Shown: positions 6,077-47,984 of the stretch, one piece after another | Numbering within the stretch: the first letter of the stretch is position 1 | Layout: each line of letters starts with the position of its first letter | Assembly: GCA_027475525.1 (NCBI GenBank) | Contig: JAMWFC010000113.1 | Span: forward strand, 992,001 to 1,056,000 | Reading direction: 5' to 3' | DNA: 64,000 nucleotides | DNA from: Macrolepiota albuminosa | Taxonomy: Eukaryota; Basidiomycota; Agaricomycetes; Agaricales; Agaricaceae | Notes under the pieces: model-generated | What the model was told of the DNA's origin: nothing | The model's database searches: none | The model's input: only the letters and a program-made list of their open reading frames with translations | Program-made: the position numbers and the translations under genes

Positions 6077-6521
6077 CCTTCACATAGCCTGCGTCACCAT
6101 TGACGCTACCAACTCATTCTACTCCTGTGGCATTCGTGGGTCATACACCCATTGCACTCCTGGCCGAGGCACTGGTCGGTCCATTAGCGACCTAGTGCTA
6201 CCCACAGTTCCCATCGTACTGTATACCTTGTCCTTGACGAGATCCTCAACCTTCACTCAAGAGCTAGTCGGCTGGCATTCCAGCGACTCCACCACACATC
6301 TACTACGCTCATTCTTGCACTGTACAGCCTGTTTAGGCTTTCCATTGGTACACCCAATCACATCCGGGTGCTTCCCCTTCTTCAGAGTTCCTTGAAACTC
6401 TTCCTCAGACATCAGTATAGCCAGCGAGTCTGCCAGCAGGCTTTTTGGTGGGGCCTGTTTGTCCTCCACCTCCTGTACAGTTGCTCTCCTGTGACCATCT
6501 AGTCAGTTGCATTCATCACGC
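6077..6521 (-). other. Chromovirus protease-RT linker remnant
   Basis: Between the RT N-terminal piece and the solo LTR the minus strand keeps one short open stretch (6469-6257, about 70 codons). It is charged and has no motif I recognise. By position it should be the protease-to-RT spacer of the same pol frame. I see no independent gene here. Confidence 0.4.
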
Positions 6522-7471
6522 TGATGACGCCCAAAGTTTGGTCAGTAACAAATGTAACAATTGTGTTACCGTACCAAGAGTGTGCGTTGGGCGCGCTATA
6601 AGTGATGTGAGGAGTCCCGGGCAGGTCCCAGAGAACGCGTCTGTGAAAAAGGGTAAAAGTCGGTAACGGAGTCGGCAAGTGTCAAGCGCTAAGGTAAAGC
6701 GCCTAAGGAAAATGCGGTAAGTGAACACGGCAAAGGTAAGCGGTAAGAGCACGATAAGCTTAGCGAAGTCTAAGCGTCGATAATGCCTGCCGTAGTTGCA
6801 AGGCGCGAGTGTGTCGAGTGTTGGCGAGCGTCTGTAACTGCCGATGAGTTCGACGTTGCCGACCGTAGCGTAAATGAGCTCTTGAGCGTAAGGGAGACTG
6901 AGGAAAGGGGAGTAAACTGTGGTCTATTGTTCTGGTGTCCTATGTACAAGTCGGTAAGTACTTTTATACTACAATGAGTTCGCCGTCGCCAGTGGCTAAT
7001 GACGCCAGAGTGCGGTAAACTGGAAAATTTCAAAGGGGTAGCTCCAACGGTTTCAGATCCCTACCGTCCATTCAAGAGCCTTAGCGACGCCAGGCGACAG
7101 ATCGCGAAGCTAAACCATCACTCCATCACCCTTCTGTCCGTCAGAGTACCTAAGCGATGTCAGGCGCCAAATCGAGACGCTAAGCGGTGTCAGACGCCAA
7201 GGTCAAACGCCAAGCTGTCCGTCAGTTTTTGATAGATCATCAAGCTTCTTGCTAAGCGCTGTCATCAGTGACTGATGCCATCTGTCAGTTGTCATTCTGT
7301 CTGCCAATCGGCGCTATCACTGATTGGATCTGCTTCTTGCCGTGCGCGGCCGTCAGAAATGGCTTAAAATAGGTAGAACGCGTGCGCTAAGTTCGGAACG
7401 AGTGCGGCAAGGTTTCCGGAGCTGGTGCCGAGCCTGCCGTTGATGCGCCTAACCTGTATGGGGTCCTATCA
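6522..7471. mobile_element. Solo LTR of the nested-element family, inserted in the chromovirus
   Basis: This 950-bp segment starts TGATGACGCCC and ends CCTATCA. It matches the LTRs at 35549-36499 and 46546-47483 over its whole length with scattered differences. It sits between the protease and RT regions of the chromovirus and has no internal element sequence, so it is a solo LTR left by recombination between two LTRs. Flanking bases are ACGC on the left and ATGC on the right, which could be a 4-bp target duplication with one CpG-to-TpG change. The intact copy of the same family has a 4-bp CCGG duplication. Confidence 0.9.
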
Positions 7472-10376: not shown

Positions 10377-10530
10377 CCGCATATCATCAACAGGCGTTAC
10401 ACCCTCACGCCCTTCAAAGACTACCCCCTGGTCATCAATTAACGACTCACCATCCGCATATCATCAACAGGCGTTACACCCTCACGCCCTTCAAAGACTA
10501 CCCCCTGGTCATCAATTAACGACTCACCAT
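10377..10530. repeat. Exact 77-bp tandem duplication (likely assembly artefact)
   Basis: Copies 10377-10453 and 10454-10530 are identical. It lies in gag and shifts the frame. Confidence 0.9.
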
Positions 10531-32133: not shown

Positions 32134-33300
32134 TCATTTCCTGAATGCGAGCGTGAGTCTTAAGACAGACTCGTGCAGGGATGGTATTGCCTGCAAGTAA
32201 GGCGCTAGGATTTGCTCGTGCTTAGATAGATAGCCATAGAAGGCGTTGCTGGACCATCTGCCTATCGCTTTCATGGCTTCGAATGGGATTCCTCTCATCA
32301 AGTACTCTAGAGTGGCTCCAATTCTGATTCCATGGCCCTGGAGAGGCTCCAAATTAGCCTCTTTTGCCGCCTTAGATAATACTACTAAGAATTTTTTCTT
32401 AGTTAGAGGCGTAGACCTCCCTTTCTTGTCTCTATATGCGAACAGGGGACCGTTTTCTGGTGGGCTGTTCACTTGGAAGTGCGCCTCTAGCGCCTTTTGG
32501 GGATCCGATGTATCGCCTTGAGTTGCCCAAGAGACTGACTCTCCGTGTACCGCGGTTTTTGTCCTTGGTAAGAAGAAAGTGGTGGTCTGCAACCCCGATC
32601 GATCCGTCGACTGAGAGACGTTGCTCGGTTTGACGTGAACCTGCGGGTCAAATGAAGAAAGTGTCGGCACCGTGAACTCACCGAGTCTCGCTGCTGAATA
32701 GAAGCATGTGGTGGCACATGCAAACACGGCTACGTTTAATGGGTCTGGTTGAGCCGAGTTTATCCCCAGGCTTTCGTGCATGGCTTGCAGAAAAGCTGGA
32801 GTGCATGGATGCCTTTTCTTCTTTTTGGATGCAGCAGGGGCGATTCTGTCAGCCGCTTTCAACAGTGCTTGTACTCTCACCCCATCAAAATTCCACTTTA
32901 CGTTGTGAAGCAAGTGCCAGGCTCTGATCCCGGCCAAATAGTTCTCGATGGCGGACTTCGAGTATGAACCGGCCAGTGCAGCGACGAATGCTTCCAACAC
33001 GTCTTGTGTCACAGGGGCTCGATAGCTCTCTTGCACTTTCCGGTAGTCGCAGAAAACATGGAACAGTAGTAACCTGGTACCGTAAGTCTCCTTCGTCGAC
33101 TCTGCCCAGGCTGCACTCATGACTTCGAAGACTCTCATCACGTCCTCTTCAGCAAGGATATGCCAGCTTTGTCCCGCTGCGGTCCCACTGCTCTCTTCTG
33201 GCACCCACAATCTCAGCCTCTCATGTGCGGTAACATGTGGCCTTAGTGGAGACGGTGCTGGCTTGAGGCCTTTTTGGTAGGGCATCGGCCTACGTTTCGC
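32134..33300 (-). pseudogene. Tyrosine recombinase domain of the DIRS-like element
   Basis: The C-terminal part of a 588-codon ORF (33900-32134). Visible features: a core-binding helical domain (STKETYGTRLLLF, KSAIENYLAGIRAWH), then the catalytic part with Arg in YSAARLGEFT, the H-x-x-R-like box GHGIRIGA, GRWSSNAFYGYL with the probable nucleophile Tyr, and a C-terminal tail. This enzyme joins the circular cDNA into the genome without target duplication. The domain itself is open and its key residues are present; the element upstream is broken. Confidence 0.85.
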
Positions 33301-35053
33301 TTTTGCAGAGCTCTCCCCTTTCCTCTTTTCTTGTTCAGAACTGCCTCCCCCAGAAACCTGAGTAAGCCCACCACTCGTCATTCTGCAGCTCGCTGATTTC
33401 GTTCTCAGACATTTGTGTGGCCTTATTTGCTCTTTTGCCTTGCCCAACATCAGATCTTCGCTCTTTACTCTCAGCTTTGCTGTCTGTGAATGGCTCGTCA
33501 TAATCAGCGATGAACTGGCCGAATTGCTCTGGTAATGGGATGGCGGGGAGCAGGAGACTTTCTGAGGGGTAGAGCCCCCTGGAGGGACCATCAGCCGGGT
33601 TAAACTGGCTCGGTACGTATCTAGAGCATATTCCGATGTCGAACTGCTCACATGTTTCGTGCACCTGTTTATTTCGACTCCTCCCCATCCACCATCCCTC
33701 CACAACCCCGGTGTTATTTCCAAACACCTTGACTCAATCTCCTTTCTTTCAAGACCTGGCAATGGATGATACCAGCAAGTAGAATCCGACGGCTTCTGCC
33801 CAGCCGATATCACAGTGGTCTGTTTTCCAGCCTGGCTTGAGACGCCATGCCCTCTACTGTGATCCCACGGTAATTCCAATACCTGTGGATGAGCTTGCAT
33901 CGGAGTATGCTTGTATGTCGAGGTACGGCGTTGACTCTGAAATTGGTCTCACCATTGGCTGAGATAGTATTCGCTTCCACCAACGCAGGTCTTCTGAGGT
34001 GCCTTTTGGGGGGGTACGTGGCAGGAAAGGATGGTTATGGAAGATACTGAGGAAGGCTTCCATTCTAGTAAGATAGGCTCTACCTTGGGGCACGATGCAA
34101 CATGCATGCAACAGCTTTCCATACAACTTCTGTGCTTCTTCCAGGTTGTGAGTCCTGGACTTCTTCCAATCGGCAACAGCTTGAGAATATTTGTCTCTCT
34201 TCTCTTTAGAGATTCCGACTTCTCTGCGCCCCAGGTCCCACTGGAAACCGATATACGACACCACGCTTCCAAATGGCACATCCTTCTCTTTCTCCCACGG
34301 AATCCCCAAGTTCTCCAACATGGCGTCAACGTCCTCCATTGCATATGTGTATGCGCTATCTTCGGCTGATCTGCATGAGGTGCTAGAATGGTCTTTAATG
34401 CATGTGGACATATCTTTGTCATACTCTTCTGGCCTGTCATCCCAATCTCTTTTCCCTCGGTACCATATCCTCCCTCCTTTGTGAATTCTTTCCCCTTTCT
34501 CCAGGATGTCATTTTCCCATTCACTTCGGAGCTCATTGTAACTCTGTAAGTATTCTTTTTTGATTCGGAAGAAGATATGATCATCCACCCATTTTGAGAC
34601 TGGACCGATGCCATGTGCACACATGATTTGTGTGTCTGCATCTCCCACCAAACCGTAGCACCCGCACCCCGAGCCGAGACCGAAACAGTCCATAGTGTCG
34701 ATGGCATAAGTGTCATTGCCTTGGAGCTTGACGACCAGTCCTGGCCATTGTGATGGTTCAATGGGCACTGTCCGATAAGCTTCCTTGACGTCATGTATGG
34801 CTGCCTGCGATCCCGGTGGCAATCGTGCGACCAGGAGAAACACGCTATTAAAAGTACCCCATGTACACAGGAAACGCGCGGAGTCAATTGTACTATTAAC
34901 TGATCACACATCATGCAAAATCGATTCACTGTGTGGGAATGACAAGTCCTGGATGAGTCAGAATTTACCAGGTTTGTTTGGCTTTGGGATAATGTGTAAA
35001 GGAGATGTTTGGAAAGGTCCAATCGCCTGCTCAACCTGTTCCCTCAAAAAAGG
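33300..35053 (-). pseudogene. Reverse transcriptase (C-terminal two thirds) and RNase H of the DIRS-like element
   Basis: From 35053 the frame gives GPFQTSP and PKPNKPGKF, then a TGA where Arg is expected, then LIQDLSFP. The main ORF, 34843-33854, has the palm start (VKEAYRTVPI), the box KWVDDHIFF (VDD), and the thumb/connection (YIGFQWDL). RNase H begins AYSDASSSTGIGITV near 33900 and continues in shifted frame with GWAEAVGFY, then NNTGVVEGWW and VPSQFNPADGPSRG near 33600. Several stops and at least one frameshift between RT and RNase H make it inactive. Confidence 0.82.
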
Positions 35054-35548
35054 TCTCAAGTAACGACCTTGTCACGACCCCTCCCCTCCGGACCCACCCC
35101 GGGACACCCCCGGAACACCATCCGGGACCCTCCCTCCGACCCCACAGGACACGCCCCGCCCCCTCCGGACCCACCCCGGGACACCCCCGGAACACCATCC
35201 GGGACCCTCCCTCCGACCCCACAGGACACGCCCCGCCATCACGACCGCCACCCCGGGACACCCCCGGAACACCATCCGGGACCCTCCCTCCGACCCCACA
35301 GGACACGCCCCGCCATCACGACCGCCGGCACCGCCATCACGCGCATCAGGACCGCCATCAGCCACCACCAGCCCCGATCACCGATCGGATCACGTGACTC
35401 GTTCCCGACCATCACGCATCACGCATCACGGCTCCACCCACGCCAATTGATCACGCGCCCCACACGCGCGATCCCGGTATGCAACCCCTGCCGCTACTCA
35501 ATGACCCCCGGAACACCATCCCAGACATCCCGGAACCCTGAGACCCGG
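35054..35548. other. GC-rich segment between DIRS-like RT and the nested LTR element, left part
   Basis: Strongly C-rich on the plus strand and full of CACCCCGGGACA-type repeats, including two chained exact 77-bp duplications (35084-35325). Its counterpart lies at 47484-47984 on the other side of the LTR element. Together they make up an older insertion of about 1 kb in the DIRS-like RT. The outermost bases GGTCT and AGACC could be a short terminal inverted repeat, but no clear target duplication is seen. Confidence 0.45.
35084..35325. repeat. Two chained exact 77-bp tandem duplications (likely assembly artefacts)
   Basis: 35084-35160 equals 35161-35237, and 35172-35248 equals 35249-35325. 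The second pair uses a different register of the same sequence, as expected if two contig ends were joined with unmerged overlaps. Confidence 0.88.
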
Positions 35549-36499
35549 TGATGACGCCCAAAGTTTTGGTCAGTAACAAATGTAACTGGAGTGTTACCGT
35601 ACCAAGAGTGTGCGTTGGGCGCGCTATAAGTGATTTGAGGAGTCCCGGGCAGGTCCCAGAGAACGCGCCTATAAAAATGAGGAAAGTCGGTAACGGGGTC
35701 GGCAAGTGTCAAGCGCTAAGGTAAAGCGCCTAAGGAAAATGCGGTAAGTGAACACGGCAATGTGAACGGCAAGAGCACGATATGCTTAGCGAAGTCTAAG
35801 CGTCGATAATGCCTGCCGTAGTTGCAAGGCGCGAGTATGTCGAGTGTTGGCGAACGTCTGCAACTGCCGATGAGTTTTGACGTTGCCGACCGTAGCGTAA
35901 ATGAGCTCTTGAGCGTAAGGGAGACTGAAGTAAGTGGGGGAAACTCTGGTCTATTCGTCTGCTGGTCCATTGTACAAGTCGGTAAGTACTTTTATACTAC
36001 AAAGAGTTCGCCGTCGCCAGTGACCAACCATCGCCAAAGTGCGGTAAACTGGAAAATTTCATAGGGGTAGCTCCAACGGTTTCCGATCCCTACCGTCCTT
36101 GGAGGACCCTTGGCGCCACCAGGCGGCAGATCGCGGTGCTAAACCATCAATCCATCACCCTTCTGTCTGTCAGAGCACCTAAGCGACGTTTGGCGCCAAA
36201 TCGAGACGGTAAGCGGTGTCAGACGCCAAGGTCAAACGCCAAGCTGTCCGTCAGTTTTTGATAGATCATCAAACTTCTCGCTAAGCGCTGTCATCAGTGA
36301 CTGATGCCATCTGTCAGTTGTCATTCCTGCTGCCGTCGGCGCTATCATTGATTGGATCTGCTTCTTGCCGTGCGCGGCCGTCGGGAATGGCTTAAAATGG
36401 GTAGAACGCGTGCGCTAAGTTCGGAACGAGTGCGGCAAGGTTTCCGGAGCCGGTGCCGAGCCTGCCGTTGATGCGCCTAACCTGTATAGGGTCCTATCA
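35549..36499 (-). repeat. 3' LTR of the nested element, 951 bp
   Basis: In element orientation this is the 3' LTR. It matches 46546-47483 but has an extra 13 bp (GGTCAAACGCCAA, around 36229). It is studded with CGCTAAG, GGTAAG and GGCAAG words. Because the antisense gene begins 169 bp inside the element, this LTR probably also supplies its promoter, reading outward from the LTR into the element. Confidence 0.92.
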
Positions 36500-36512
36500 T
36501 CTCCCCCCAACT
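36500..36512 (-). promoter_or_regulatory. Polypurine tract of the nested element
   Basis: On the minus strand the bases just before the 3' LTR read GTTGGGGGGAGA, a clean purine run in the expected place for plus-strand priming. Confidence 0.8.
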
Positions 36513-36667
36513 GAAAAATTGACTGTCCTCAGTCACCAAATAAGGCTACCGTTACCGCTTTTGTGACAGGTGGTCCGTGCGTTCTTGAGATTTGGTTTAT
36601 AGTCCTGGCGCATGAGTTTGGACTTCGTCTCTCCTCCACATCTTTACCTGGCGCTCTATTAAAAAAT

Positions 36668-39120
36668 ATGTCTTTCCGAATTCCAACTCCGCCTCCAGTA
36701 CCGTCTCGCGAGGCTCAAGACGCCGCCTCCGCTTACATTGAAAAGGCCAATAAGTTCATCAAGCGCATCGAGGGTGTGGGCGCGGAGGCGCCTACAAACT
36801 TGGTTGTTGCCGTTATGCGATTACTGGAGCGTTGGTATGAGGTGCGGGTCCTTGGCGTTGGGTGGGATCGCGAGATTGAGGTGCGGGAGTGGTGCCGGTC
36901 GCGGTACCTGGATCATCGTGGCGCGGAGTGGCTAGCGCCTTTTTCTCGTTTTGTAAGTGCTTTCAAGTCCTTGCCGTGTCGCCAACTGATTGGGTCCCTA
37001 GGCGCCTCCTCCCGTCCCTACCATCGAGGACGAGTTGGAAGATATCTTGTCGGGTGCCTTGCCGATGACGGTAAGCGCTCCCGCGCCTGAGTAAGTAACT
37101 CTGATTTTTATCTCTAACTTAGCTGTGGTCTGACCTGTCTCCCCATAGCAAACAAGAGGTGTTAGCGCCTCTTGCTAATTTGCAGGTGGACGCTGAGATG
37201 GCGGCAATCCGCGAGAATGTGCTGGAAGAGGCTTCTCGTGACGCCAAGGAGAGGATCAGGGCGTTGGAGGAGCGAGAGGCCGTTGGCGAGTCCCTGGTTG
37301 CTAGCGAGAAGTCGCCAGTTGCCAGGAGGCAGATGTCTGATATGAAGGATTCCCGCGCCGGTAGTGCCCAGAGCCCAGCACTGCCGGCAAGCAAATCGGG
37401 CTCTCCGGTCAAGCCTGGCAAGACTTTGAAAAAGAAGGTAAGTTTGAGGGTTCTTACTGCTGGCGACTTCTGCTTATCCCCACTCTCAGTCTCGTAAGGC
37501 TGCCGCCCCTCGTTACACGGTAAGTTCGTTGCGCCAAGGTACTTTCCCTGCTAACCAACCAGTTGACAGGCGCCAACGCAAACTTCCTTTAGCGACGCAG
37601 AGCTGAAGGGTTTGTTGGTGGCAAGACGAGATGAGGCGGTTTTGGATGAGGGAATGGAAGCGGGAGTGGTCTTGCCGGAGATGAAGGATAAGAAGACGGC
37701 AAGTCCAGCGGCAAGGCGGGAGTTCAAAGACTCCCAAGGAGCGGTAAGTACCATAGCTTTCCTTACCGCTCTTGCTGACATTCTTGTAGTGCGACAAGTG
37801 CTGGGCCGACAACGACCCAGAGGGGTGTTGGTACCCCACTGGTGGCCAGCCTTGCTACCGGTGCGGTACGCTGAAGAGGGCATGCACTTTGGATGGCGCC
37901 AAGAGTCGAGAACGCGGTGGAGCTCCCGACGCGGTAGTGGAGCGTACTTTTAAGCGTGCCGTCTTGGTCAAGAGAGCGCGGGAGTTCGTTGAGGAGGAGA
38001 GGAAGAAGCAGGCCGCTGGCGACGCGGCCACAATCAGCAAGAGTTCCCTGGCGCTGCCGACGCGTCAAGGGGACGAAAACAGAAGCAGGCCGCTGGCGAC
38101 GCGGCCACAATCAGCAAGAGTTCCCTGGCGCTGCCGACGCGTCAAGGGGACGAAAACAAAACGGTCGGCAATCGTGGCGCCGGAGAGCGCCAAGGGACTG
38201 CGGTCCCCACAAAACGACAAGCCCCTTCCCCCAGCAAAGGGAAGGGCAAAGCAAAGCGCCCGCGTGTAGTTTCGTCGTCGCCTTCCCCCTCGCCAGTGCC
38301 AAGGGATACGGAAATGGAGGACCTGGAGAAGGCGCTGGCGGCTAGTCGCCTCCCGCCTCGTGACACCGAGGCTGGCCCCAGCGGGCTGTTGTCGCCTATT
38401 CACTTGGCGGCACGGTCTCTTGGCGGGGAGCAGGAGGAGGGAGAGAGGGAGGCGCCTCAAGAGGAGCGGGAAGACGCTCCCGCCGATGTCGAGATGGAGG
38501 TGGAGGAGAAGGCAGAGGGAGCGGCAACGGGAGGGACTGAGGACGCCGAGGGTGAAGAAGAAACCTTGGCGACTCAACGCGAAAACGACGCGGCGGGCAC
38601 CGCGGCTAGGGAGCCGGTGGCAGAAGAGGTGGTAGAGGGCGAGGGGGCGATGGAAGAGACTTTGCAGGACTTCCCTGGCGAGTCCCAGGAGTTGCCATTG
38701 TTGGCGCCTGCCGCCCCCTGGGCAAGTGGGGATGAACTGGGGACGCGGCAGTGGACCAGCGACAGTGCCTCGTCGTGGACCCCCCAACCTCAGCCAAGGG
38801 TCACTGGCGACTCCTATGAGTGGTTGGGGGAGGACTTGGTTTACCCGGTGGTGGCCCTTTACCCTCCTCAAGTGATAGAGCGGATGGCGACGCGTGCGGC
38901 AAGCATGCGAGCGGTTCTGGGTCGCGAGCGCGAGCGAGTGCGGCAGCAAATTATGGCCTCTCGCCTTCGGTACGCCAATTTGACTCGTAGCATGGACGCC
39001 CTTCAAGAGTACCAGGCGGACTGCAACGAGGCGCTAGAGTGGCAGGTCCTCAACCACGTACAAGTTGGCGACCTCTTGCCGCTCGACGATGCCATGTCGC
39101 TTCCCGAGGATGAAGACTGA
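36668..39120 (+). CDS. Antisense spliced gene inside the LTR element; six-cysteine protein of about 706 aa, unrecognised
   Basis: Exons: 36668-36952, 37002-37090, 37149-37437, 37490-37519, 37570-37743, 37790-39120. All introns are GT-AG, 46-58 nt, and phases agree. The last exon contains an exact 77-bp duplication (38004-38157); dropping one copy gives one frame to the stop at 39120 (707 codons). Cysteines at 290, 293, 302, 311, 314 and 321 form CX2CX8CX8CX2CX6C, a likely zinc-binding module. Before it lie Glu/Arg-rich helices that could be coiled coils. After it come a basic patch (GKGKAKRPR), a long Glu-rich acidic region, and a C-terminal helix rich in Arg. The gene faces the pol genes tail to tail. 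No gag, pol or envelope features and no membrane span are seen. The layout suggests a nuclear regulator, but the function is unknown. Confidence 0.75.
38004..38157. repeat. Exact 77-bp tandem duplication (likely assembly artefact)
   Basis: Copies 38004-38080 and 38081-38157 are identical. It breaks the last exon of the antisense gene; removal restores the frame. Confidence 0.92.
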
Positions 39121-39549
39121 CGGACCTTAGAGTAGATAGGCCGTCTGTACATATATTTTTGTTGGCGCCTCGATTTCTTTATATAAATTTTGTGTTTCCC
39201 TGCCGAGTGGAGGAATTGAGTCCAATAATCTGAGTTAGCGTAGCGGCAGAGAGCAAGGAAAGTATAGCAAAGAGAAAGCAAGCGGTAAGTATTCTGAGGT
39301 AGGTATAAGCAAGAACAGTAATATGTGAGGGACTTAGACAAATTTTGAGGAAAGGGAAACGCTCAGTAAATCATCATAGCGAAAAACCCTTGGCGAGAGT
39401 TGCGCAATGCGCTAAACGTTGGCGACACGCTAGCGCTGCGACTTGACTATGTAAAGAATTGTCTGTTGGATATAGTACAGTAAGTATCGGCAAGAGAGAT
39501 AAGTAAGATAGGTAATAGAAAAAGAGAGCTTATCAATATATAGTCTTTT
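39121..39549. other. Convergent spacer between the antisense gene and integrase
   Basis: AT-rich. The antisense gene ends at 39120 and the integrase ORF ends at 39550 on the other strand, so this holds the 3' end of the antisense transcript. ATATAAATTTTGTG near 39180 may belong to its polyadenylation region. Confidence 0.5.
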
Positions 39550-40926
39550 CTAATCTGGTTCTTCTTCTTCAACTAGGGTCGGTAAGTCATCATCGTCCAG
39601 TAATTCTGTTTCTTCAAGTTCCCTAAGCTTGGCGGTGTCGATATCTAGCGCTTCAAGCGGCAAGTCGATGTGTTCTCTAGCGAGATACGGTAATAGGCGA
39701 AAAGCGGCAACGGGTCGATGCAATACTGAACCATCTAATTCACAGAGCACGTAAGCGCCTCCACGGTTACGAGAGATAACTACCAAAGGTCCTAGATAGC
39801 GAGGGCGCATTTTCTTGTTGTACGAGGTTTCGATTTTGGAGTTGCGCATGAGCACTAGCGCGCCCCTCGGGAAGTTGTAATCTTTGATGGTAGCGCTATG
39901 CTCGGTTTCGAATCGTAACGCTGCTTGGCGACGTGCGCTAAAGACCACCTCGTGGAGTCGCTCTAAATCTTCTTTCCTTCGCTGGAGGTCAATAGCTCGT
40001 CTGGCGACAAGGTCGGTAGTCGCTAAGATACTGTTGGGCGCTGGCTGAAGATATGTCGCTTCTATAATGTCGGCAGGGAGTAACGGATGGGTGCCAGTAG
40101 CCGCGTAATAGGGAGAACAACCCATGCGCTTACGAATAGTAACTCTTTCCGACCAGAACACTGAATAGGTCGCTTCGCTCCAACGAGACTCGTCACCATC
40201 GACTGCCTTGAAGAGCGCTTGCCGAACGTCAAAGTGGGGTCTCTCTACCAGGCCATTGGCGCGCTTGTTGTAGCCAGATACTCGAATGTGATGAATGTTG
40301 TACTTCTTGGCGAGATATGTTAGCGCTTTGATGATGGGCGCACCATTATCCGTGACGATCTCTCTTAGCGCTCCCCAACGGCAGATGATGTCCTCAAATA
40401 TCCACTTGGCGACCGCGTCGGTATTTTCTCTCTGGAGCATTCGAAATTCAGGCCAGTGGATTAGCGAGCAACGACCTTGAATGATGTACTTATAGCGACC
40501 AGATTTGGGCATGTGCATGGTATCGACGTAGATTTTGCTGAAGAGGGGAGCTGGCGTTGCAACGGTTGGCGGTATGAGCACTTGGCGTGTCTGTTGGATT
40601 TGGCAGAGGTGGCAAGTCCTGATGTACCAGGCGATGTCGGCGCTAGCGTGTGGCCACCAAAATCGTTCTAGCAGAGAAGCTCGGGTAGCGTACAGACCTC
40701 TATGTCCTAGCTCGTCATGCATAGCGCGCAAGACTCGTAAGCGACCTTCTGGCTTGATGATCAGCTTGTGGGTTCCATCTCGATTTCGTCGCCAAAGTCT
40801 GTTGTCGGTAAAGAAGAAACGGGTAGCGTAGCGGATAAAGGTCGCGTATTTCCATCTCGATTTCGTCGCCAAAGTCTGTTGTCGGTAAAGAAGAAACGGG
40901 TAGCGTAGCGGATAAAGGTCGCGTAT
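39550..40926 (-). CDS. Integrase of the nested Ty3 element
   Basis: The ORF 40872-39550 has an HHCC zinc domain (HDELGHRG ... CHLCQ), then the catalytic core with Asp in YVDTMHMP, Asp in VTDNGAP and Glu in ANGLVERP, and a C-terminal domain with a GPY/F-like LGPLVVISRN. The tail is acidic and has no chromodomain. Just upstream the frame is disturbed by an exact 77-bp duplication (40773-40926), whose removal joins this ORF to sequence following the RT ORF. Only a TAA at 40971-40973 (context LLVVE-stop-WIQDL) then separates RT-RNase H from integrase. It may be a single mutation or a recoding site. Confidence 0.88.
   Translation of the reverse strand: MRDLYPLRYPFLLYRQQTLATKSRWKYATFIRYATRFFFTDNRLWRRNRDGTHKLIIKPEGRLRVLRAMHDELGHRGLYATRASLLERFWWPHASADIAWYIRTCHLCQIQQTRQVLIPPTVATPAPLFSKIYVDTMHMPKSGRYKYIIQGRCSLIHWPEFRMLQRENTDAVAKWIFEDIICRWGALREIVTDNGAPIIKALTYLAKKYNIHHIRVSGYNKRANGLVERPHFDVRQALFKAVDGDESRWSEATYSVFWSERVTIRKRMGCSPYYAATGTHPLLPADIIEATYLQPAPNSILATTDLVARRAIDLQRRKEDLERLHEVVFSARRQAALRFETEHSATIKDYNFPRGALVLMRNSKIETSYNKKMRPRYLGPLVVISRNRGGAYVLCELDGSVLHRPVAAFRLLPYLAREHIDLPLEALDIDTAKLRELEETELLDDDDLPTLVEEEEPD
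40773..40926. repeat. Exact 77-bp tandem duplication (likely assembly artefact)
   Basis: Copies 40773-40849 and 40850-40926 are identical. It splits the integrase N-terminus from the end of RNase H. Confidence 0.92.
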
Positions 40927-40970
40927 TGTTCGTCGGTAAGGTCTGGGGGTCGCTTAAGGTCTTGTATCCA

Positions 40971-43376
40971 TTACTCGACTACCAATAGGCGACTATCTTC
41001 CGCCTTTGCCTTGGCGGATCGGAGAACGGCATCGTAGGTCAGGTTTTTGCTGTCTTCTCTTAGCGACTGAGGTTCCTGTACGACTTTTACTGGAGGCAAG
41101 TTTTGACTGTGGATGCTTGCCGTGTAGAACGTGAGGGGTGCGCTAAAGGTCTCGGGGCGGTAAGGGACTATGGGATGTAACAGGATGCTGGTAGGCTGTT
41201 GCCGTCGTAGTAAGGGAATTGGCTGTTGAATGAGGTGCACGAAACCATGTAGTCGGTCGATCCAGTCCTCGAAATCGCTATCAGCCTGTGGGTCCACTGC
41301 CGGGTCGCCAGGCTGCCGTGGTTGCCTAGAGAGTCCATCTGGGCCGTGGAAAGAGCTCTTGACGTGTACCAGCTCAAAGTGAAACATGAGGATAGCGACT
41401 ACCCACCGATTCATGCTAGCGGATGGCTGGATATCGGGATTCTGCAGCATGCCTTTGATGTACCTAGCGTCGACCTCAACGATAAGGTTGCGCACGCCAA
41501 TCAAATACATCTTTAGCGACCGGAAGGCTTTGAAGAGCCCATAGAGTTCTAGCTTAGGCTGGCTGTAGCGAGACTCTCTGTCGTTTAGCGTGATAGACCC
41601 AAAGCGGTTGTAGCGTCGCTGTTTCCGATTGTCGCTAAGGCACTGGCAGAGAAAGTATCCAACTGCAATGTACGAGGTATCCACCGCCAAGATAACAGGG
41701 TCGGCAGAGCTATAGTCGATGGGAACTAGGGGCTTGGCGTCCTGCAGAGCTTTTACTAAGTCGCGTTGGGCAGTGACCTGGTCTGGCCCAAATTCGAAGG
41801 GCTCGTTAGCGCGGGTGAGTCGGTTAAGGGCATGTGCGCGATGGGCAAAGTTTTTGACGAATATCCTGAGAACGCCAACGGTACCAAGAAAGGCGCGAAC
41901 TTCAGATAAGTCGCGGCAAGGGCCCCAGCGCTCCAAGAGTGCTAAGCGAGATTCGTCGGGAACGCGACCGTCGGGAGTGCAGATGTGACCGAGTATTTTG
42001 AACCTTGGCGCACAAAGAAGGAGCTTGTGGCCGCTAAAGGTACCACCGCTATACTTCATGCGCTGGAGAACTCGATTGAGCAGCAAGAAAAACTCCCATA
42101 GCGCTAAGCGAATGTTGGGGTTCTCGGGATGGGTCGCCGGTAAGCCGTTAACGAGTCGCCAGTCTTTGGGACCTTTGACGCCAACGTCATCAATGAAGCT
42201 AAGGACATGGTGCGGTATCTCGGGTTGGAGGATGAAGGTAATGTCATCATGGAATATAGGGACTGAGTTTGTCCAGCCCATCGGTAAGGTGACTAGGCGC
42301 AGTGCGCCAAACGGAGTTTGAAACGTAGTTAGGTCGCGGGAAGAAGGGTGAATCAAGCGTTCATCGTAGCCAACGTAGAGGTCAAGGGTGGCGCCACAAA
42401 TGCGCCCGGCAAAGGACTCGGCAAAGTGGTCAGGGAAAGGCGGTACGCCAGAGTGTCGTATTGTAACTCTATTTAGCGGCTCGAGACTGTGAACTATGCG
42501 TAGATTGCCGTTCTTCTTGAGGACACAGAACCAGCGGGAGCGGTAAGAACTATTTGAGGGCTCGTAGACGCCAGCCTGTATCTTGGTCCTAATAATCTGA
42601 CAGACCTCGGCTTCGATCCCAGGCGGTAACGGTCGGTTGTGCTCAGTCCACGGCACGTGAGGAATAGTCGGGATTACAACAGGCGGGAAGAAATCTGTAC
42701 GTAGGCTGCCGCGTTCGGAGTCCTCCCAAGCGAAGGCTTTGTCTTGCTTAGCGACAAGATCGGTAAGGACGTTTAACTCATCTTTGGTCAAAAATCCTGT
42801 GTCGTGCTCCTTGGCGAACTGCTGTTGGCGTTCCTCGGTAAAACGTCCTGTGGGCTGAAAGGGTGGCGGATTCGGTGATAAGGCCGGCATGTCGGCAAGA
42901 GGGTCGCCAATGATCTGGCGCTCGATTCTGAAAGTCTCGGGAGAGTGCGTAGCGATGGGTTTTGTTTTAAGCGCAACTGGCTTATATTTCTTTTTAACTT
43001 GAACCCCTTTCCTTTTGGGAGCGTTAGCTTGGTTATACACAGATGTGGAAAGGGGAACTGTAGCCTGAGGAGCGGCAAGTCCAAGAACGGCAGGAGGCGA
43101 GGCTCCGGGGAGAGTGGTGAGATAAGTATCGGTAGACGCTATATTTTGAAACGATTCAGAGGCGGTAAGATATAAGTACGCTAGAGCTGAGTCGGTAATA
43201 TCTGGGTTTTTCTGAGAAAGCTCAGCGTCGGTAACGGTCGAGGAAAGTAAAACTTCTTTGTCAAGATATGCGGTAGACAAAATATTTACAAGACCAGTTG
43301 AATGGTCATATTCCAGCGTTAGCGCCACATCTCCGTGATCGTCGCCAATCACCTCCTCGATGGTCTGTGAAAACAC
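40971..43376 (-). CDS. Reverse transcriptase and RNase H of the nested Ty3 element
   Basis: 801-codon ORF. The RT fingers and palm are seen as WFCVLKKNGNLRIVHSLEPLN, then LDLYVGYDE (first catalytic Asp), then LPMGWTNS and the FIDD box (SFIDDVGVKGP). RNase H has Asp in LAVDTSYIAVGY, Glu in PKLELYGL and Asp in VEVDARYIKGML. The palm differs from the common Ty3 text (FIDD for YLDD, GWTNSV for GLTNAP), marking a divergent lineage. The frame is -1 relative to gag-protease and overlaps it by 28 nt. The first in-frame codon is GTG, so pol is probably made by a -1 frameshift in the overlap rather than from its own start. Confidence 0.9.
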   Translation of the reverse strand: MFSQTIEEVIGDDHGDVALTLEYDHSTGLVNILSTAYLDKEVLLSSTVTDAELSQKNPDITDSALAYLYLTASESFQNIASTDTYLTTLPGASPPAVLGLAAPQATVPLSTSVYNQANAPKRKGVQVKKKYKPVALKTKPIATHSPETFRIERQIIGDPLADMPALSPNPPPFQPTGRFTEERQQQFAKEHDTGFLTKDELNVLTDLVAKQDKAFAWEDSERGSLRTDFFPPVVIPTIPHVPWTEHNRPLPPGIEAEVCQIIRTKIQAGVYEPSNSSYRSRWFCVLKKNGNLRIVHSLEPLNRVTIRHSGVPPFPDHFAESFAGRICGATLDLYVGYDERLIHPSSRDLTTFQTPFGALRLVTLPMGWTNSVPIFHDDITFILQPEIPHHVLSFIDDVGVKGPKDWRLVNGLPATHPENPNIRLALWEFFLLLNRVLQRMKYSGGTFSGHKLLLCAPRFKILGHICTPDGRVPDESRLALLERWGPCRDLSEVRAFLGTVGVLRIFVKNFAHRAHALNRLTRANEPFEFGPDQVTAQRDLVKALQDAKPLVPIDYSSADPVILAVDTSYIAVGYFLCQCLSDNRKQRRYNRFGSITLNDRESRYSQPKLELYGLFKAFRSLKMYLIGVRNLIVEVDARYIKGMLQNPDIQPSASMNRWVVAILMFHFELVHVKSSFHGPDGLSRQPRQPGDPAVDPQADSDFEDWIDRLHGFVHLIQQPIPLLRRQQPTSILLHPIVPYRPETFSAPLTFYTASIHSQNLPPVKVVQEPQSLREDSKNLTYDAVLRSAKAKAEDSRLLVVE

Positions 43377-46162
43377 CGGTGTGGAGGCTCGTTGGCGTGT
43401 TGGTCGGTAAACTCCGGGGGCTTAGCGCGGGCGCCTTTTCGTTGTCCCCTAGGGAACGTTGGCACCGTTCGTCGGATTCCGGAGTTGGGGTCGCTAATTG
43501 TGAGGGTCGTTTCCTCGTCGGTAACTGTCTTGACGACTGATCGCGCCAAGACGTCGAAGGGTCTGCCCAGTAGTAGGTCGTAAGCTGGTGAACGTAAGAT
43601 GTGGATCTGAAGATAAAACGTGATGTCGCCAAGGGTGCACGGCACATTCTTGGCGAGGCCTAGGGATCTGTCTACCGTACCGTTAGCGCTCTGCATATTT
43701 AGTATAACGGTAGGGTCGTAAATGAGGCCTAGATCGTTAGCGACTTCTGCTGCCATAGAAATAATCTGAGACCCGCTATCCACGATTGCCTCTACTTCGT
43801 GCTTGTTGTCTACGGTTAGCGCTACCGAGCGGATAGCGTGCGATTCTTGAGCGACGGTAAGAATGGCGGGGTCCTCTCCATGGTCTACAGACCTAAGGTA
43901 GGTCTCTACTGGGTCCACCGAGGTGGCGTTAGCGATGGAGTCGGCTGGAGAATCTTCAGCGTCGGGAGAGTCGATGGTAACAGAGAAACCAGGAAGCGCG
44001 TCGTCGAGTTCATCAACCTCGGCAACGGCTGTCGCCAAGGGTCGTCGAGGAGTGACTGCCGTCTTGACTTGGTTGCGGACGTCGGGAGCAATACTACAAA
44101 GCTCTTCTACTGATAAGGTAACATTGGTTTTCATGATGCGGTTAAAGACGTGGTTGGATTTCTCGATATCGAATATTGGCGCAGTAGGTCGGTAGCCACC
44201 CTCAGGACGTTTCTCGGGAGCGGCAAAGTTTCGTTGTGCGGGAGCGTGATAACGGTCGGGAATCCCGGAGTAGGGATGGAGAGGCGGCAAAGGCGGGTCG
44301 GGAGCGGTAGCGGACGACGGTGGTTCTGAGGCAGGAGCAGGGGCAGTGGCAGGAGGTGCAGCAGGAGCAGGTGTCGGTAACTTGCTAGCGGGAGGCATTG
44401 GCTTGTATCCTTTAAGAGGTTGTTTAGGCTGCTTAACTTCAACCCCATCAAAGACCTGGTTCTTTAGCGAATCTAATTCCTGCTGCAGCTTGGCGATACG
44501 CTCTTCCCGCGAGAAAGTAGGGTGGTCGCCAACGCTGTCGAAATGTAGGACCTCGTGAATCATCTGCTGTTGGGTCGCCTGTTCGGGGTCGGGGTTAGCG
44601 TTGCCAGATAGCGTGCCGGTAACGATTTGTCCTGGGTTGCGCCTATGCCATTCATCAACTCGCTCCTGGAAGGACTTCTTGTCTGGGTAGTTGGGGATGG
44701 TGGCGCCAGTGGTGAGGACTATCTTGCCGTCGATAGCTCGTCGAATTCTACCTTGGCGAACGTAATTCTCGAGGGTAGCGCAGCGTCCTCTAGTCATGGT
44801 GTGGCCAATTTCCCCACAGAAGTGGCAAGGGCCAGGTGCGGGTACGTTAGCGGGTCGGTTAGCAGTCAGGTTGGTGGTAATCATAGTTTCGATACGTGTC
44901 ATCGCGGAGGCGACAGCGGCGGTAATAGCAGCATTGAGCTCTTCTTTCTTAACGAAGTCGGCAACAGGAGGCGGGATGGGAATGATACCGTTAGTTCGCT
45001 CAGGGGGTGGGCTCGTCCTAGCGCGTGGTATGCCAACGCCAGTGTCTGTTCCCTTGAGAACCCATTTGCCGGCTTCAAAGACGTCGGCAACGTTATAGGG
45101 CTCGTCTGGGTGATGAGCCTGATGAACTATCTCTAGGCGACGAGCAATACGCGTCCACAGTGAAGTCGGGATGCCCTGCTGAAATGGGTAGTTGGGGATG
45201 GTGGCGCCAGAGGTAAGAACTATCTTGCCGTCGATAGCCCTTCGAATTCTCCCTTGCCGAATATAATTCTCAAGGGTAGCGCAGCGTCCTCTAGTCATAG
45301 TGTGGCCAATTTCCCCACAGAAGTGGCAAGGGCCAGGTGCGGGAACGTTAGCGGGTCGGTTAGCAGTCAGGTTGGTGGTAATCATAGTTTCGATACGTGT
45401 CATCGCGGAGGCGACAGCGGCGGTAATAGCAGCATTGAGCTCTTCTTTCTTAACGAAGTCGGCAACAGGAGGCGGGATGGGAATGATACCGTTAGTTCGC
45501 TCAGGGGGTGGGCTCGTCCTAGCGCGTGGTATGCCAACGCCAGTGTCTGTTCCCTTGAGAACCCATTTGCCGGCTTCAAAGACGTCGGCAACGTTATAGG
45601 GCTCGTCTGGGTGATGAGCCTGATGAACTATCTCTAGGCGACGAGCAATACGCGTCCACAGTGAAGTCGGGATGCCCTGCTGAAATAGGCGACGCTCCTC
45701 GTTAATATAGAGCTTGCCGTTCTGCAGAAGCCACCTAGCGATTTTCTGGAACTCGCGGTAATACGTGGAGAACGCGCCAAGCGAAGATGTGCCGTTATCG
45801 AAAGATTCCTGGACTAATTTCTGCAACTCGTTTACCGTGTAGCGGGTAGCCTCCTCAGCGCCAGGGTACAGCTGGATAACTGCCGTCTTCCAGTCCTCAT
45901 ACGAAGCGCCTTGAGCTGGAGCTGGCGGTGCGGCAGGGACAAAGGCGGCAAACTCCGTAAGACCTGTCCACGTCTCTGCCGTGTCATACGATACGTATCT
46001 TGCCGCGTACTCCTTCATCTGCGTGTGGTCGGTAATGTTACAGTCTCTGAATAGATACTCCAATTCCTTGAAATACTGGGATAGCTCCCGTGGTTTGGTC
46101 TCGTCCCATTTCGGTGCCGAGAAGTGGTTGCGTGGCGGCATGCGCTGGACTTGTTGTTCCAT
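43349..46162 (-). CDS. Gag and protease polyprotein of the nested Ty3 element, 937 aa, with an internal duplication
   Basis: ATG at 46162. The gag helical domain (SQYFKELEYLF, AARYVSYDTAETW, QLYPGAEEATRYTVNELQKL) is followed by a CX2CX4HX6C zinc knuckle (CHFCGEIGHTMTRGRC). About 167 residues including the knuckle occur twice in frame (45185 and 44684 mark the offsets, 501 bp apart). A Pro/Ala-rich linker leads to a retropepsin with Asp in IVDSGSQIISMA and the later LLLGRPF. The copies of the duplicated block differ at several bases, so it is probably real or a chimera of two element copies, not a simple assembly overlap. The stop lies in the pol overlap. Confidence 0.9.
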   Translation of the reverse strand: MEQQVQRMPPRNHFSAPKWDETKPRELSQYFKELEYLFRDCNITDHTQMKEYAARYVSYDTAETWTGLTEFAAFVPAAPPAPAQGASYEDWKTAVIQLYPGAEEATRYTVNELQKLVQESFDNGTSSLGAFSTYYREFQKIARWLLQNGKLYINEERRLFQQGIPTSLWTRIARRLEIVHQAHHPDEPYNVADVFEAGKWVLKGTDTGVGIPRARTSPPPERTNGIIPIPPPVADFVKKEELNAAITAAVASAMTRIETMITTNLTANRPANVPAPGPCHFCGEIGHTMTRGRCATLENYIRQGRIRRAIDGKIVLTSGATIPNYPFQQGIPTSLWTRIARRLEIVHQAHHPDEPYNVADVFEAGKWVLKGTDTGVGIPRARTSPPPERTNGIIPIPPPVADFVKKEELNAAITAAVASAMTRIETMITTNLTANRPANVPAPGPCHFCGEIGHTMTRGRCATLENYVRQGRIRRAIDGKIVLTTGATIPNYPDKKSFQERVDEWHRRNPGQIVTGTLSGNANPDPEQATQQQMIHEVLHFDSVGDHPTFSREERIAKLQQELDSLKNQVFDGVEVKQPKQPLKGYKPMPPASKLPTPAPAAPPATAPAPASEPPSSATAPDPPLPPLHPYSGIPDRYHAPAQRNFAAPEKRPEGGYRPTAPIFDIEKSNHVFNRIMKTNVTLSVEELCSIAPDVRNQVKTAVTPRRPLATAVAEVDELDDALPGFSVTIDSPDAEDSPADSIANATSVDPVETYLRSVDHGEDPAILTVAQESHAIRSVALTVDNKHEVEAIVDSGSQIISMAAEVANDLGLIYDPTVILNMQSANGTVDRSLGLAKNVPCTLGDITFYLQIHILRSPAYDLLLGRPFDVLARSVVKTVTDEETTLTISDPNSGIRRTVPTFPRGQRKGARAKPPEFTDQHANEPPHRCFHRPSRR
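44684..45685. repeat. 501-bp in-frame tandem duplication inside gag
   Basis: The block beginning TGGGTAGTTGGGGATGG at 44684 recurs at 45185. It spans the zinc knuckle and the segment before it. Scattered differences exist (for example at 44709 against 45210). The length, 501, is a multiple of three, so gag stays open with two knuckles. Confidence 0.88.
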
Positions 46163-46524
46163 AGCGACTGGGTTGGCGAGTTCGGTTAGCGGTTGTGGGG
46201 AAGGAGTTCTAGAGGTTGGCGACGGGGTGAGCGAAATGACGAGTTGTGAAAGCGGTGTTAACGGAGTGATAGGGGTAACTGATTGCGGTAAGGTAAAGGG
46301 CGACGCTAAGGGGTCGTCGGTACTATAATCGAGGGAATGCGGGAAGAGATCAGGAAAAGCGTCTACAGTGGCGTTCTGTAGTTCCTGGGCGAGAGAGAGA
46401 CCCGGTAAGGCACCAGGTGGTTGTGGGGTTGATGGGTGGGAAGGAGCAATGCCTTCTGCCGACTGCTCTAGCAGGCGGCGCCTACGCTGAAGACGGGTTT
46501 CTGGCGGAATTCTGCCCTAGAGAT

Positions 46525-46542
46525 CCCTCGCGGTGGGCTCCA
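46525..46542 (-). promoter_or_regulatory. Primer-binding site of the nested element
   Basis: Three bases inside the 5' LTR (minus strand) stands TGGAGCCCACCGCGAGGG. TGG pairs with a tRNA 3' CCA. The reverse complement parses as T-stem, a 7-nt acceptor strand (GGTGGGC), discriminator T and CCA, so a full-length tRNA primer is likely. I cannot name the tRNA. Confidence 0.75.
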
Positions 46543-46545
46543 ATT

Positions 46546-47483
46546 TGATGACGCCCAAAGTTTTGGTCAGTAACAAATGTAACTGGAGTGTTACCGTACC
46601 AAGAGTGTGCGTTGGGCGTGCTATAAGTGATTTGAGGAGTCCCGGGCAGGTCCCAGAGAACGCGCCTATAAAAATGAGGAAAGTCGGTAACGGGGTCGGC
46701 AAGTGTCAAGCGCTAAGGTAAAGCGCCTAAGGAAAATGCGGTAAGTGAACACGGCAATGTGAACGGCAAGAGCACGATATGCTTAGCGAAGTCTAAGCGT
46801 CGATAATGCCTGCCGTAGTTGCAAGGCGCGAGTATGTCGAGTGTTGGCGAACGTCTGCAACTGCCGATGAGTTTTGACGTTGCCGACCGTAGCGTAAATG
46901 AGCTCTTGAGCGTAAGGGAGACTGAAGTAAGTGGGGGAAACTCTGGTCTATTCGTCTGCTGGTCCATTGTACAAGTCGGTAAGTACTTTTATACTACAAA
47001 GAGTTCGCCGTCGCCAGTGACCAACCATCGCCAAAGTGCGGTAAACTGGAAAATTTCATAGGGGTAGCTCCAACGGTTTCCGATCCCTACCGTCCTTGGA
47101 GGACCCTTGGCGCCACCAGGCGGCAGATCGCGGTGCTAAACCATCAATCCATCACCCTTCTGTCTGTCAGAGCACCTAAGCGACGTTTGGCGCCAAATCG
47201 AGACGGTAAGCGGTGTCAGACGCCAAGCTGTCCGTCAGTTTTTGATAGATCATCAAACTTCTCGCTAAGCGCTGTCATCAGTGACTGATGCCATCTGTCA
47301 GTTGTCATTCCTGCTGCCGTCGGCGCTATCATTGATTGGATCTGCTTCTTGCCGTGCGCGGCCGTCGGGAATGGCTTAAAATGGGTAGAACGTGTGCGCT
47401 AAGTTCGGAACGAGTGCGGCAAGGTTTCCGGAGCCGGTGCCGAGCCTGCCGTTGATGCGCCTAACCTGTATAGGGTCCTATCA
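46546..47483 (-). repeat. 5' LTR of the nested element, 938 bp
   Basis: In element orientation this is the 5' LTR. It lacks the 13 bp present in the partner LTR, and the two other differences I noted (around 46619 and 47392) are C-to-T changes at CpG. The end is followed by CCGG. An exact 77-bp duplication (47411-47564) then repeats the LTR end. Confidence 0.92.
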
Positions 47484-47564
47484 CCGGCGAGTGCGGCAAG
47501 GTTTCCGGAGCCGGTGCCGAGCCTGCCGTTGATGCGCCTAACCTGTATAGGGTCCTATCACCGG
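47411..47564. repeat. Exact 77-bp tandem duplication (likely assembly artefact)
   Basis: Copies 47411-47487 and 47488-47564 are identical. It repeats the last 73 bp of the LTR plus CCGG, so a false second LTR end appears at 47560. Confidence 0.92.
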
Positions 47565-47984
47565 CCCCGTAGTATTTATAGCGTAGTTCCCTGTTGTATT
47601 CGGCAGTCTTGATATTACATTGCTTTACTTGGATTGTTGCGTGCCCTCTGCTTGACTGGTACGCATTGACTGGCACGCTTTTGACTGGCACGCTTGAATA
47701 CTCGCGTGCTCTAAGATTGGTACGCACTTCGCGACTTTAATTTGCTAACTTGGTCTCATCTTAGAACCTCCGGTTCACGACTCGACCCCCACCCAAACTC
47801 CCCAGCTACTTACCACCCAAAACCCCCGGACCAAATCCCCTTCCCCGGGATTCCCCTGTCCACGTCTTGAACCCCGGAGTCCTAGCCCCGGAGTTCCAGA
47901 CACCCGAGTATCCGTAGGTCAAGTCCGCATTGTAAGGGCGATCGCTTTCCCGGAAGGCCCCCGACTCAGCGGAACCTGACAGAC
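47565..47984. other. GC-rich segment, right part, between the LTR element and DIRS-like RT
   Basis: Counterpart of 35054-35548. It contains short repeats ACTGGCACGCTTTTGACTGG (near 47668-47695) and a stretch GGTTCACGACTCGACC that vaguely resembles a tRNA B box. There is no clear ORF and its class is not identified. Confidence 0.4.

Follow-up and report, generated by a model that had tools for sequence, protein, structure and literature searches.

A Ty3/Gypsy-type retrotransposon of Macrolepiota albuminosa with a conserved spliced antisense gene and a selected CG[CG][CT]AA motif array

The 64,000-nt stretch of contig JAMWFC010000113.1 of Macrolepiota albuminosa analyzed here (the window) contains a retrotransposon of the Ty3/Gypsy type with long terminal repeats (LTRs) at positions 35549–47483, whose gag-pol lies on the minus strand. 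On the plus strand the element carries a six-exon gene at 36668–39120, between the integrase (IN) and the 3′ LTR, and over its whole length it is studded with the short word CG[CG][CT]AA. Comparison of many genomic copies leaves hardly any doubt that the antisense gene is real and under selection, and we are also highly confident that the motif array is real and selected. These features suggest that the element makes a protein which recognizes its own DNA.

Antisense genes have been described in LTR elements, and their function is not known (PMC7264820, PMC11963269). The element-wide motif, which was absent from the first-pass annotation of this DNA, is the best clue to function and turns this open question into a direct one: does the antisense protein bind CG[CG][CT]AA? 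If it does, a high-copy fungal retrotransposon would have a means of marking its DNA or shielding it.

A spliced antisense gene in most copies of the element

The first-pass annotation had read six exons, five GT-AG introns of 46–58 nt and consistent phases from the window, and both the window and the copies agree with this structure. Exon 1 (36668–36952) starts with an ATG at 36668 and is followed by exon 2 (37002–37090), exon 3 (37149–37437), which ends in KTLKKK, and exon 4 (37490–37519), which together with the end of exon 3 forms KKKSRK. Exon 5 (37570–37743) encodes an FSDAELKGLL block that is conserved in relatives from Termitomyces, and exon 6 (37790–39120), frameshifted in the window copy, encodes a six-cysteine (Cys6) cluster of the form CX2CX8CX8CX2CX6C, basic stretches, an acidic region and a conserved C-terminal block. 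The introns at 36953–37001 (49 nt), 37091–37148 (58 nt), 37438–37489 (52 nt), 37520–37569 (50 nt) and 37744–37789 (46 nt), all on the plus strand, are bounded by GT and AG, and the reading frame is consistent across all five splice junctions. The proposed placement opposite to gag-pol, between integrase and 3′ LTR, was corroborated by the positions of pol, the gag-protease (PR) part and the LTRs.

The genome searched comprises 100 Mb in 129 contigs. Since each search lists the best-scored part of its candidates (40 of 367, 96 of 3286, 150 of 782 and 70 of 2370), the copy numbers given here are lower bounds. A 221-nt piece of the antisense gene had at least 40 matches, the window included, among the best 40 of 367 candidates. 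A first set of copies consisted of 20 copies besides the window (21 sequences with the window), and a second set of 20 loci combined 12 loci drawn from the 40 at which integrase had no scored antisense match with eight loci from other Cys-cluster classes. The intron and product counts of the second set exclude L031, L037 and L039 and refer to 17 copies.

The start codon aligned in all 21 sequences of the first set, and the lengths of exons 1–5 were identical in 20 of them, while the introns differed by small (1-nt) indels. By eye, 104 of 105 introns were bounded by GT and AG, the exception lying within a deletion in L013. The same held for 85/85 introns of the 17 further copies (for one intron once its acceptor had been moved by 2 nt), in which the intron positions were unchanged and the intron interiors much altered. 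No clean intron loss was found in the window and the 37 other copies. This retention through retrotransposition fits the antisense position, where the introns are hidden from splicing of the sense strand, as had been argued in the first-pass annotation. Chance open reading frames (ORFs) or splice sites were excluded by the conservation over many copies.

A product of about 706 amino acids (aa) had been predicted. Sixteen of the 20 copies are indeed open over 702–728 aa (L013, L016, L023 and L028 are not), and 14 of the 17 further copies encode products longer than 600 aa; the window copy itself stops after residue 448. The cause is an exact 77-nt tandem duplication in exon 6 (38004–38157), very likely an assembly artifact, which shifts the frame, and alignments of the 20 fetched copies show a single unit at this position. 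When tandem duplications with units of 40–129 nt were sought, the window contained 10 non-overlapping exact cases (starting at 10377, 10775, 11887, 12224, 24477, 35083, 38004, 40773, 47411 and 63630), and as all of these share a period of 77, they are probably an artifact of assembly or polishing with k = 77. They break the antisense ORF of the window copy and also occur in pol. An eleventh duplication (12020) overlaps one of the ten, and the one at 35083 is part of a longer array with three units that are 86–100% alike. Because the window copy is broken in this way, the gene was read in other copies. Of the conceptual products, 18 of 21 in the first set and 15 of 17 in the second contain the cysteine motif recognized in the window, the remainder being truncated upstream of the cluster.

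The gene is under purifying selection across copies and is present in most family members, so that two of the three refutations named in the first-pass annotation did not apply. Compared with the window copy, the ratio of nonsynonymous to synonymous divergence (dN/dS) was 0.121 for the gene (up to position 38003) and 0.043 for IN (20 copies each), and 0.079 for the reverse transcriptase (RT; 19 copies). Hence the constraint on the antisense gene, as estimated from these copies, is clear yet weaker than that on pol. Pooled over 120 pairs of 16 full copies, dN/dS was 0.228; by region, it was lowest in exons 1–2 (0.10) and the Cys region (0.11) and highest in the C-terminal half (0.25). A scored match to the Cys cluster was located within 4 kb past the integrase end at 56 of 96 scored integrase loci (the best 96 of 3286), on the strand opposite to the integrase in all 56 cases and at a distance of 1.4–1.8 kb in 55 loci and 3.0 kb in one. 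This recurrence beside integrase, always on the opposite strand, excludes a host gene that was caught once. Ten of the 12 sampled integrase loci without a scored match, from each of which 3.3 kb were fetched, also carry the N and C termini of the gene (L039 without the middle), whereas L037 has exon 1 only and L031 has no trace of the gene in the fetched stretch. Stop-free open frames of at least 340 aa surrounded 114 of the 150 scored Cys-cluster matches (the best 150 of 782).

Two observations concern the history of the copies. In its first 300 codon columns the antisense gene of L015 does not differ from that of L011, and up to column 420 it hardly does, while its last 180 codon columns are closer to L026 (0.84–0.88) than to L011 (0.41–0.63), and L015 is probably a recombinant. 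Synonymous divergence (pS) is much higher in the C-terminal part of the gene (0.51) than in exons 3–5 (0.13).

The antisense protein

The relatives of the antisense protein were hypothetical proteins of two Termitomyces strains (10 proteins in one search, then 18), and all protein relatives found belonged to this genus. A block CxKCWAxNxxEGCWY is nearly invariant among them. In one relative (P0009), the stretches on either side of intron 4 are separated by additional residues, and another (P0010) shows a similar, less exact pattern, hinting at the same intron 4 in Termitomyces. The charge profile of the antisense protein shows basic stretches and an acidic region, in line with the basic patch and long acidic region noted before. 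As to the coiled coils proposed in the first-pass annotation, structure prediction gave a long C-terminal helix, modeled with high confidence in the Termitomyces relative P0004.

Fungal Zn2Cys6 factors follow the consensus CX2CX6CX5-12CX2CX6-8C and often read CGG. The antisense protein resembles them in that its six cysteines form two halves, each beginning with CX2C, and in its basic residues and acidic region, and it differs in its first loop, which has eight residues instead of the six of the consensus, and in leaving the Pfam family Zn_clus unmatched. That the Cys region is a candidate zinc-cluster DNA-binding domain is a reasonable guess from these likenesses. As annotated, the antisense protein is the element's single product without a standard retroelement role.

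A CG[CG][CT]AA array under selection

In an unbiased count of the 6-mers of the element, CGCCAA, CGGTAA and CGGCAA ranked first to third and CGCTAA fifth, while the fourth-ranked 6-mer overlaps CGCCAA; the consensus is CG[CG][CT]AA. The array (35549–47493) comprises 199 sites, 114 on the plus and 85 on the minus strand, a few of which are counted twice owing to duplications within the element. Dinucleotide simulations predicted 26.8 sites (standard deviation 5.1). The density of 16.7 sites per kb, or about one per 60 bp, extends over all parts of the element, with 24 per kb in the LTR, 12.7 in the antisense exons, 15.7 in the antisense introns and 15–17 in pol. In comparison with a few loci and with the remainder of the window, the array is specific to the element: the density was 1.4–2.2 per kb elsewhere in the window and 1–4 per kb in the kilobases that flank the element. 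Further bins of high density correspond to an LTR copy at 6–8 kb (22 sites fall into the two 1-kb bins beginning at 6001) and to a related LTR at 63 kb. All 40 loci from L009 to L048 hold 10–17 motifs per kb.

Changing single positions of the word abolished most or all of the enrichment; CG[CG][CT]AG stayed mildly enriched (90 vs 31), and two other changed words reached 1.7-fold. After codon shuffling within ORFs, 3.5 sites remained of the 20 observed in IN and 8.1 of 41 in RT, and for the antisense gene the observed and shuffled numbers were 26 vs 6.5 (L011) and 28 vs 6.4 (L020). Two control ORFs were flat (3 vs 2.6 and 2 vs 1.3). Permuted CG-containing words occur 19–88 times in the element. 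On the strength of the simulations, the codon shuffles and the permuted words, we reject the idea that the motif arises from composition or codon bias. Direct pairs of neighboring sites 12–13 nt apart were found 15 times against about 3.4 expected, but the duplication of the LTRs inflates this number. When the genome was searched for three words of the motif in a fixed order, four matches were obtained and none in the reversed control, a criterion too strict to be informative: two of the four loci had the antisense gene and integrase, and two had neither and held 1.6–2.3 motifs per kb.

Between copies, 87.9% of the motif 6-mers in pol and 76.7% of those in the antisense gene were identical, compared to 68.6% and 65.9%, respectively, of the other 6-mers. 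A stronger test, confined to four-fold degenerate sites, shows the same difference. In IN, 16/497 of these sites (3.2%) differed inside the motif and 475/3265 (14.5%) outside; in RT, the numbers were 34/975 (3.5%) and 1001/6006 (16.7%), and in the antisense gene 27/505 (5.3%) and 413/3095 (13.3%). The reduction is thus about four-fold in pol and 2.5-fold in the antisense gene, and for the three regions combined the rate was lower inside the motif in 20/20 copies. When the test was limited to matches of at most 97% identity, 3.7–3.8% of the sites differed inside the motif versus 15.7% and 16.9% outside. Twelve permuted words with more than 200 four-fold sites had a mean rate of 0.157. By these measures, selection on the motif goes beyond the encoded protein. 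Since the word is preserved at silent positions and on both strands, it is most simply explained as the site of a DNA-binding factor, and the distribution over both strands favors recognition as DNA over RNA. A role of the motif as RNA signal was rejected for the same reason.

The fate of the motif in old copies is of interest in this context. The CpG ratio of the window element is 1.08. In the older-looking relatives L045–L047, the word appears to have decayed to TG[CG][CT]AA, which reaches 6.1–8.2 per kb, as expected from CpG methylation and deamination. A degraded neighboring relative (L053; 63001–64000 of the window, L053:400–4480), whose RT pieces are 46% and 61% identical, has 1.1 CG[CG][CT]AA and 7.7 TG[CG][CT]AA per kb in its gag-RT part, with an observed/expected CpG ratio of 0.28, and its LTR-like stretch contains 10 motif sites per kb and repeated CGCTAAG words. 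Within the 9.9 kb fetched for L053, where Copia-like ORFs follow, no antisense gene was found. The pattern in this one element would agree with a decay of the motif through C-to-T changes. The contrast between these relatives and the CpG ratio of the window element fits protection from methylation, but the youth of the element alone could explain it.

Proposed function and alternative explanations

We propose that the protein of the accessory antisense gene binds the element's own CG[CG][CT]AA array, a proposal for and against which we find the case evenly balanced. It is the simplest model because the element has a spare product, this product has a Cys6 cluster and basic stretches, and 48% of the motif sites start with CGG. 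We infer transcription, nuclear entry, DNA binding, dimerization, the pairing of protein and motif, and anti-silencing as follows. Transcription of the antisense gene would probably start from a promoter within the 3′ LTR or next to it, and the host would splice the transcript. The encoded protein would enter the nucleus, bind DNA through the Cys6 cluster and the adjoining basic stretches, and pair through its long C-terminal helix. The CG[CG][CT]AA sites throughout the element would be its targets, and binding along the element may mark its copies, counter their silencing or control their transcription. Anti-silencing as the outcome of binding is a tentative suggestion that we consider somewhat more doubtful than the binding itself.

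Several results weigh against this proposal. In profile searches of the product, as had been suggested in the first-pass annotation, no Pfam family matched the protein even at E 10, and no solved structure was matched in a profile search of the PDB. Only 10 of the 18 Termitomyces relatives have the full six-cysteine spacing; several of the 18 resemble broken predictions. Structure models had low mean pLDDT (predicted local distance difference test) values, 55.6 for a Termitomyces relative and 57.6 for the Cys region, with roughly 39–58 per ten residues in the Cys stretch, and Foldseek returned one match, with E 7.6. The spacing analysis of the motif sites gave no clear dimer signature, and convergent pairs were below expectation. 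L031 and L037 hold 10.6 motifs per kb although the full gene is absent from the stretch fetched. Furthermore, the rate at four-fold sites was low (0.068) for one of the permuted control words as well, and the motif and copy counts are interdependent because the compared copies share ancestry.

A rather unlikely but serious alternative is that the gene and the array are both real and unrelated, with a host factor reading the motif as a dispersed enhancer, insulator or chromatin signal, and the antisense protein having another role, for example in nuclear entry or assembly. The evidence for the motif is independent of any protein, the Cys region was modeled without confidence, and the two loci just mentioned retain the motif. 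However, the motif is rare in the rest of the window, as described above, so that within the DNA covered such a factor would chiefly benefit the element, and the element has one spare protein, in which the Cys6 cluster and the basic stretches are conserved.

HTLV-1 HBZ is encoded by a spliced antisense gene at the 3′ end of the provirus, and the position and strand of the gene described here are those of the HTLV antisense gene. An HBZ-like regulator, which would act on LTR transcription through protein contacts and need no array of sites, appears improbable. HBZ is nuclear (PMC11963269), and the HTLV antisense promoter lies in the 3′ LTR (PMC7264820). The long helical C-terminus of the relative and the long acidic region would also suit such a regulator, whereas the selection on the motif spans pol and the antisense gene and thus reaches beyond the LTR. 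A bZIP domain of the HBZ type was not found, the antisense protein being without any Pfam match.

Regulatory antisense transcripts are known in retroelements (PMC7264820), and the antisense RNA rather than the protein could be functional by forming double-stranded RNA with the genomic RNA. The dN/dS of 0.12–0.23 and the conserved frames beside variable introns make this very improbable. We give equally little credence to an array that serves RNA packaging or integration instead of chromatin: it does span the entire transcript, but an RNA signal should be one-sided, in contrast to the 114 and 85 sites on the two strands. That the apparent gene is an artifact or a passenger host gene in one copy, as the frameshift in the window copy could suggest, can practically be dismissed in view of the many copies at unrelated loci, the conserved introns and the selection.

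Comparison with known systems

Antisense ORFs of plant LTR elements (the aORF-3R class and Retand TRP28) have the same place and strand as the gene described here, and like it they occur in most family copies and are conserved like other element proteins; TRP28 is predicted to bind DNA (PMC11963269, PMC7264820). Unlike these ORFs, the gene in M. albuminosa has six exons, five conserved introns and a Cys6 cluster, and no Pfam match. The TRP28 domain was not detected in its product, with zero Pfam families at E up to 10; Pfam, we presume, includes TRP28. A further difference is the selected element-wide short motif, of which the available sections on the plant antisense ORFs make no mention (PMC11963269, PMC7264820).

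The likeness to the retrotransposon Boty lies in the fungal element and the described position of an antisense gene. Zhao 2011 is said to be the original paper on this gene, brtn. It is located between pol and the 3′ LTR of Boty in Botrytis cinerea and Sclerotinia sclerotiorum (PMC7264820, PMC4227169, PMC8365987). Hence, the statement in the first-pass annotation that there is no described fungal example has a precedent against it (PMC7264820) and holds at most for the domain set. Boty differs in belonging to ascomycetes and in a gag-pol with a chromodomain (PMC4227169). No Botrytis protein was among the relatives of the antisense protein that were found, where the brtn sequence was not used as query.

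VANDAL elements are DNA transposons. In Arabidopsis, the protein VANC21 binds YAGTATTAY, which is dense in VANDAL21, rare elsewhere, mainly non-coding and often in tandem repeats, and methylation is lost there (PMC5735166). The element described here is likewise a transposable element in which a short motif is dense, whereas other parts of the window have few copies of it. In contrast to VANDAL21, its motif includes a CpG and extends across the element through coding as well as non-coding sequence, and binding would be the proposed step. The protein relatives of the antisense product were all from Termitomyces, and no direct comparison with VANC was made. A VANC-like system of independent origin in a retrotransposon, with a CpG-containing word and copies that are coated by their own protein and escape CpG methylation, is a possible but speculative scenario. 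Fungal DNA transposons that carry TET are thought to bring along their own counter to cytosine methylation (PMC12730594); different from the antisense protein, TET is an enzyme and resides in DNA transposons.

Within the literature searched, which covered few subscription journals, we found neither a case from a basidiomycete nor an antisense product with a Cys6 cluster, nor a motif spread over an LTR element. Antisense genes as a class are known, but in that literature we met no description of a Cys6 gene with several introns or, most notably, of a selected motif array.

Structure and surroundings of the element

The element has LTRs, gag-PR, and then RT-RNase H ahead of integrase on one strand, and its assignment to Ty3/Gypsy is based on this domain order, with the RVT_1 match below its cut-off and the integrase core unmatched. 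The 3′ LTR (35549–36499, minus strand), whose plus strand reads TGATGACG...CCTATCA, shares direct repeats of 300 and 269 nt with the 5′ LTR (46546–47483, minus strand). CCGG at 35545–35548 is a probable target-site duplication, the partner of which (47484–47487) lies within the 77-nt duplication at 47411–47565 (read from the sequence and detected by TRF). Adjoining the 3′ LTR, the stretch at 36500–36510 reads TTGGGGGGAGA on the minus strand and resembles a polypurine tract.

A Pfam profile search found RVT_1 (below cut-off), RT_RNaseH and Integrase_H2C2 in this order in pol. The integrase end (39550–40872, minus strand) matched Integrase_H2C2 with E 7.5e-16, and the Pfam integrase core had no match there. 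The reverse transcriptase and RNase H part, in which RVT_1 was matched, extends from 40971 to 43376 on the minus strand. The gag-protease ORF (43349–46162, minus strand) contains, as recognized by eye, a knuckle CHFCGEIGHTMTRGRC of the form CX2CX4HX6C and the DSG of VDSGSQI. Within the gag ORF, 44684–45484 contains a direct repeat with a spacing of 501 nt that is 96% alike over 300 nt; it keeps the frame and doubles the knuckle region, and may be genuine or assembly-derived.

Outside the element, a minus-strand ORF resembling tyrosine recombinases (Phage_integrase, E 2e-4, below cut-off) lies next to a second long ORF at 32134–34900, a region with a CpG ratio of 0.69 and no motif array, which could represent a DIRS/Ngaro-like element. 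The LTR-like stretch at 6519–7471 is 90–92% identical to the LTRs of the element and constitutes a solo LTR or a fragment.

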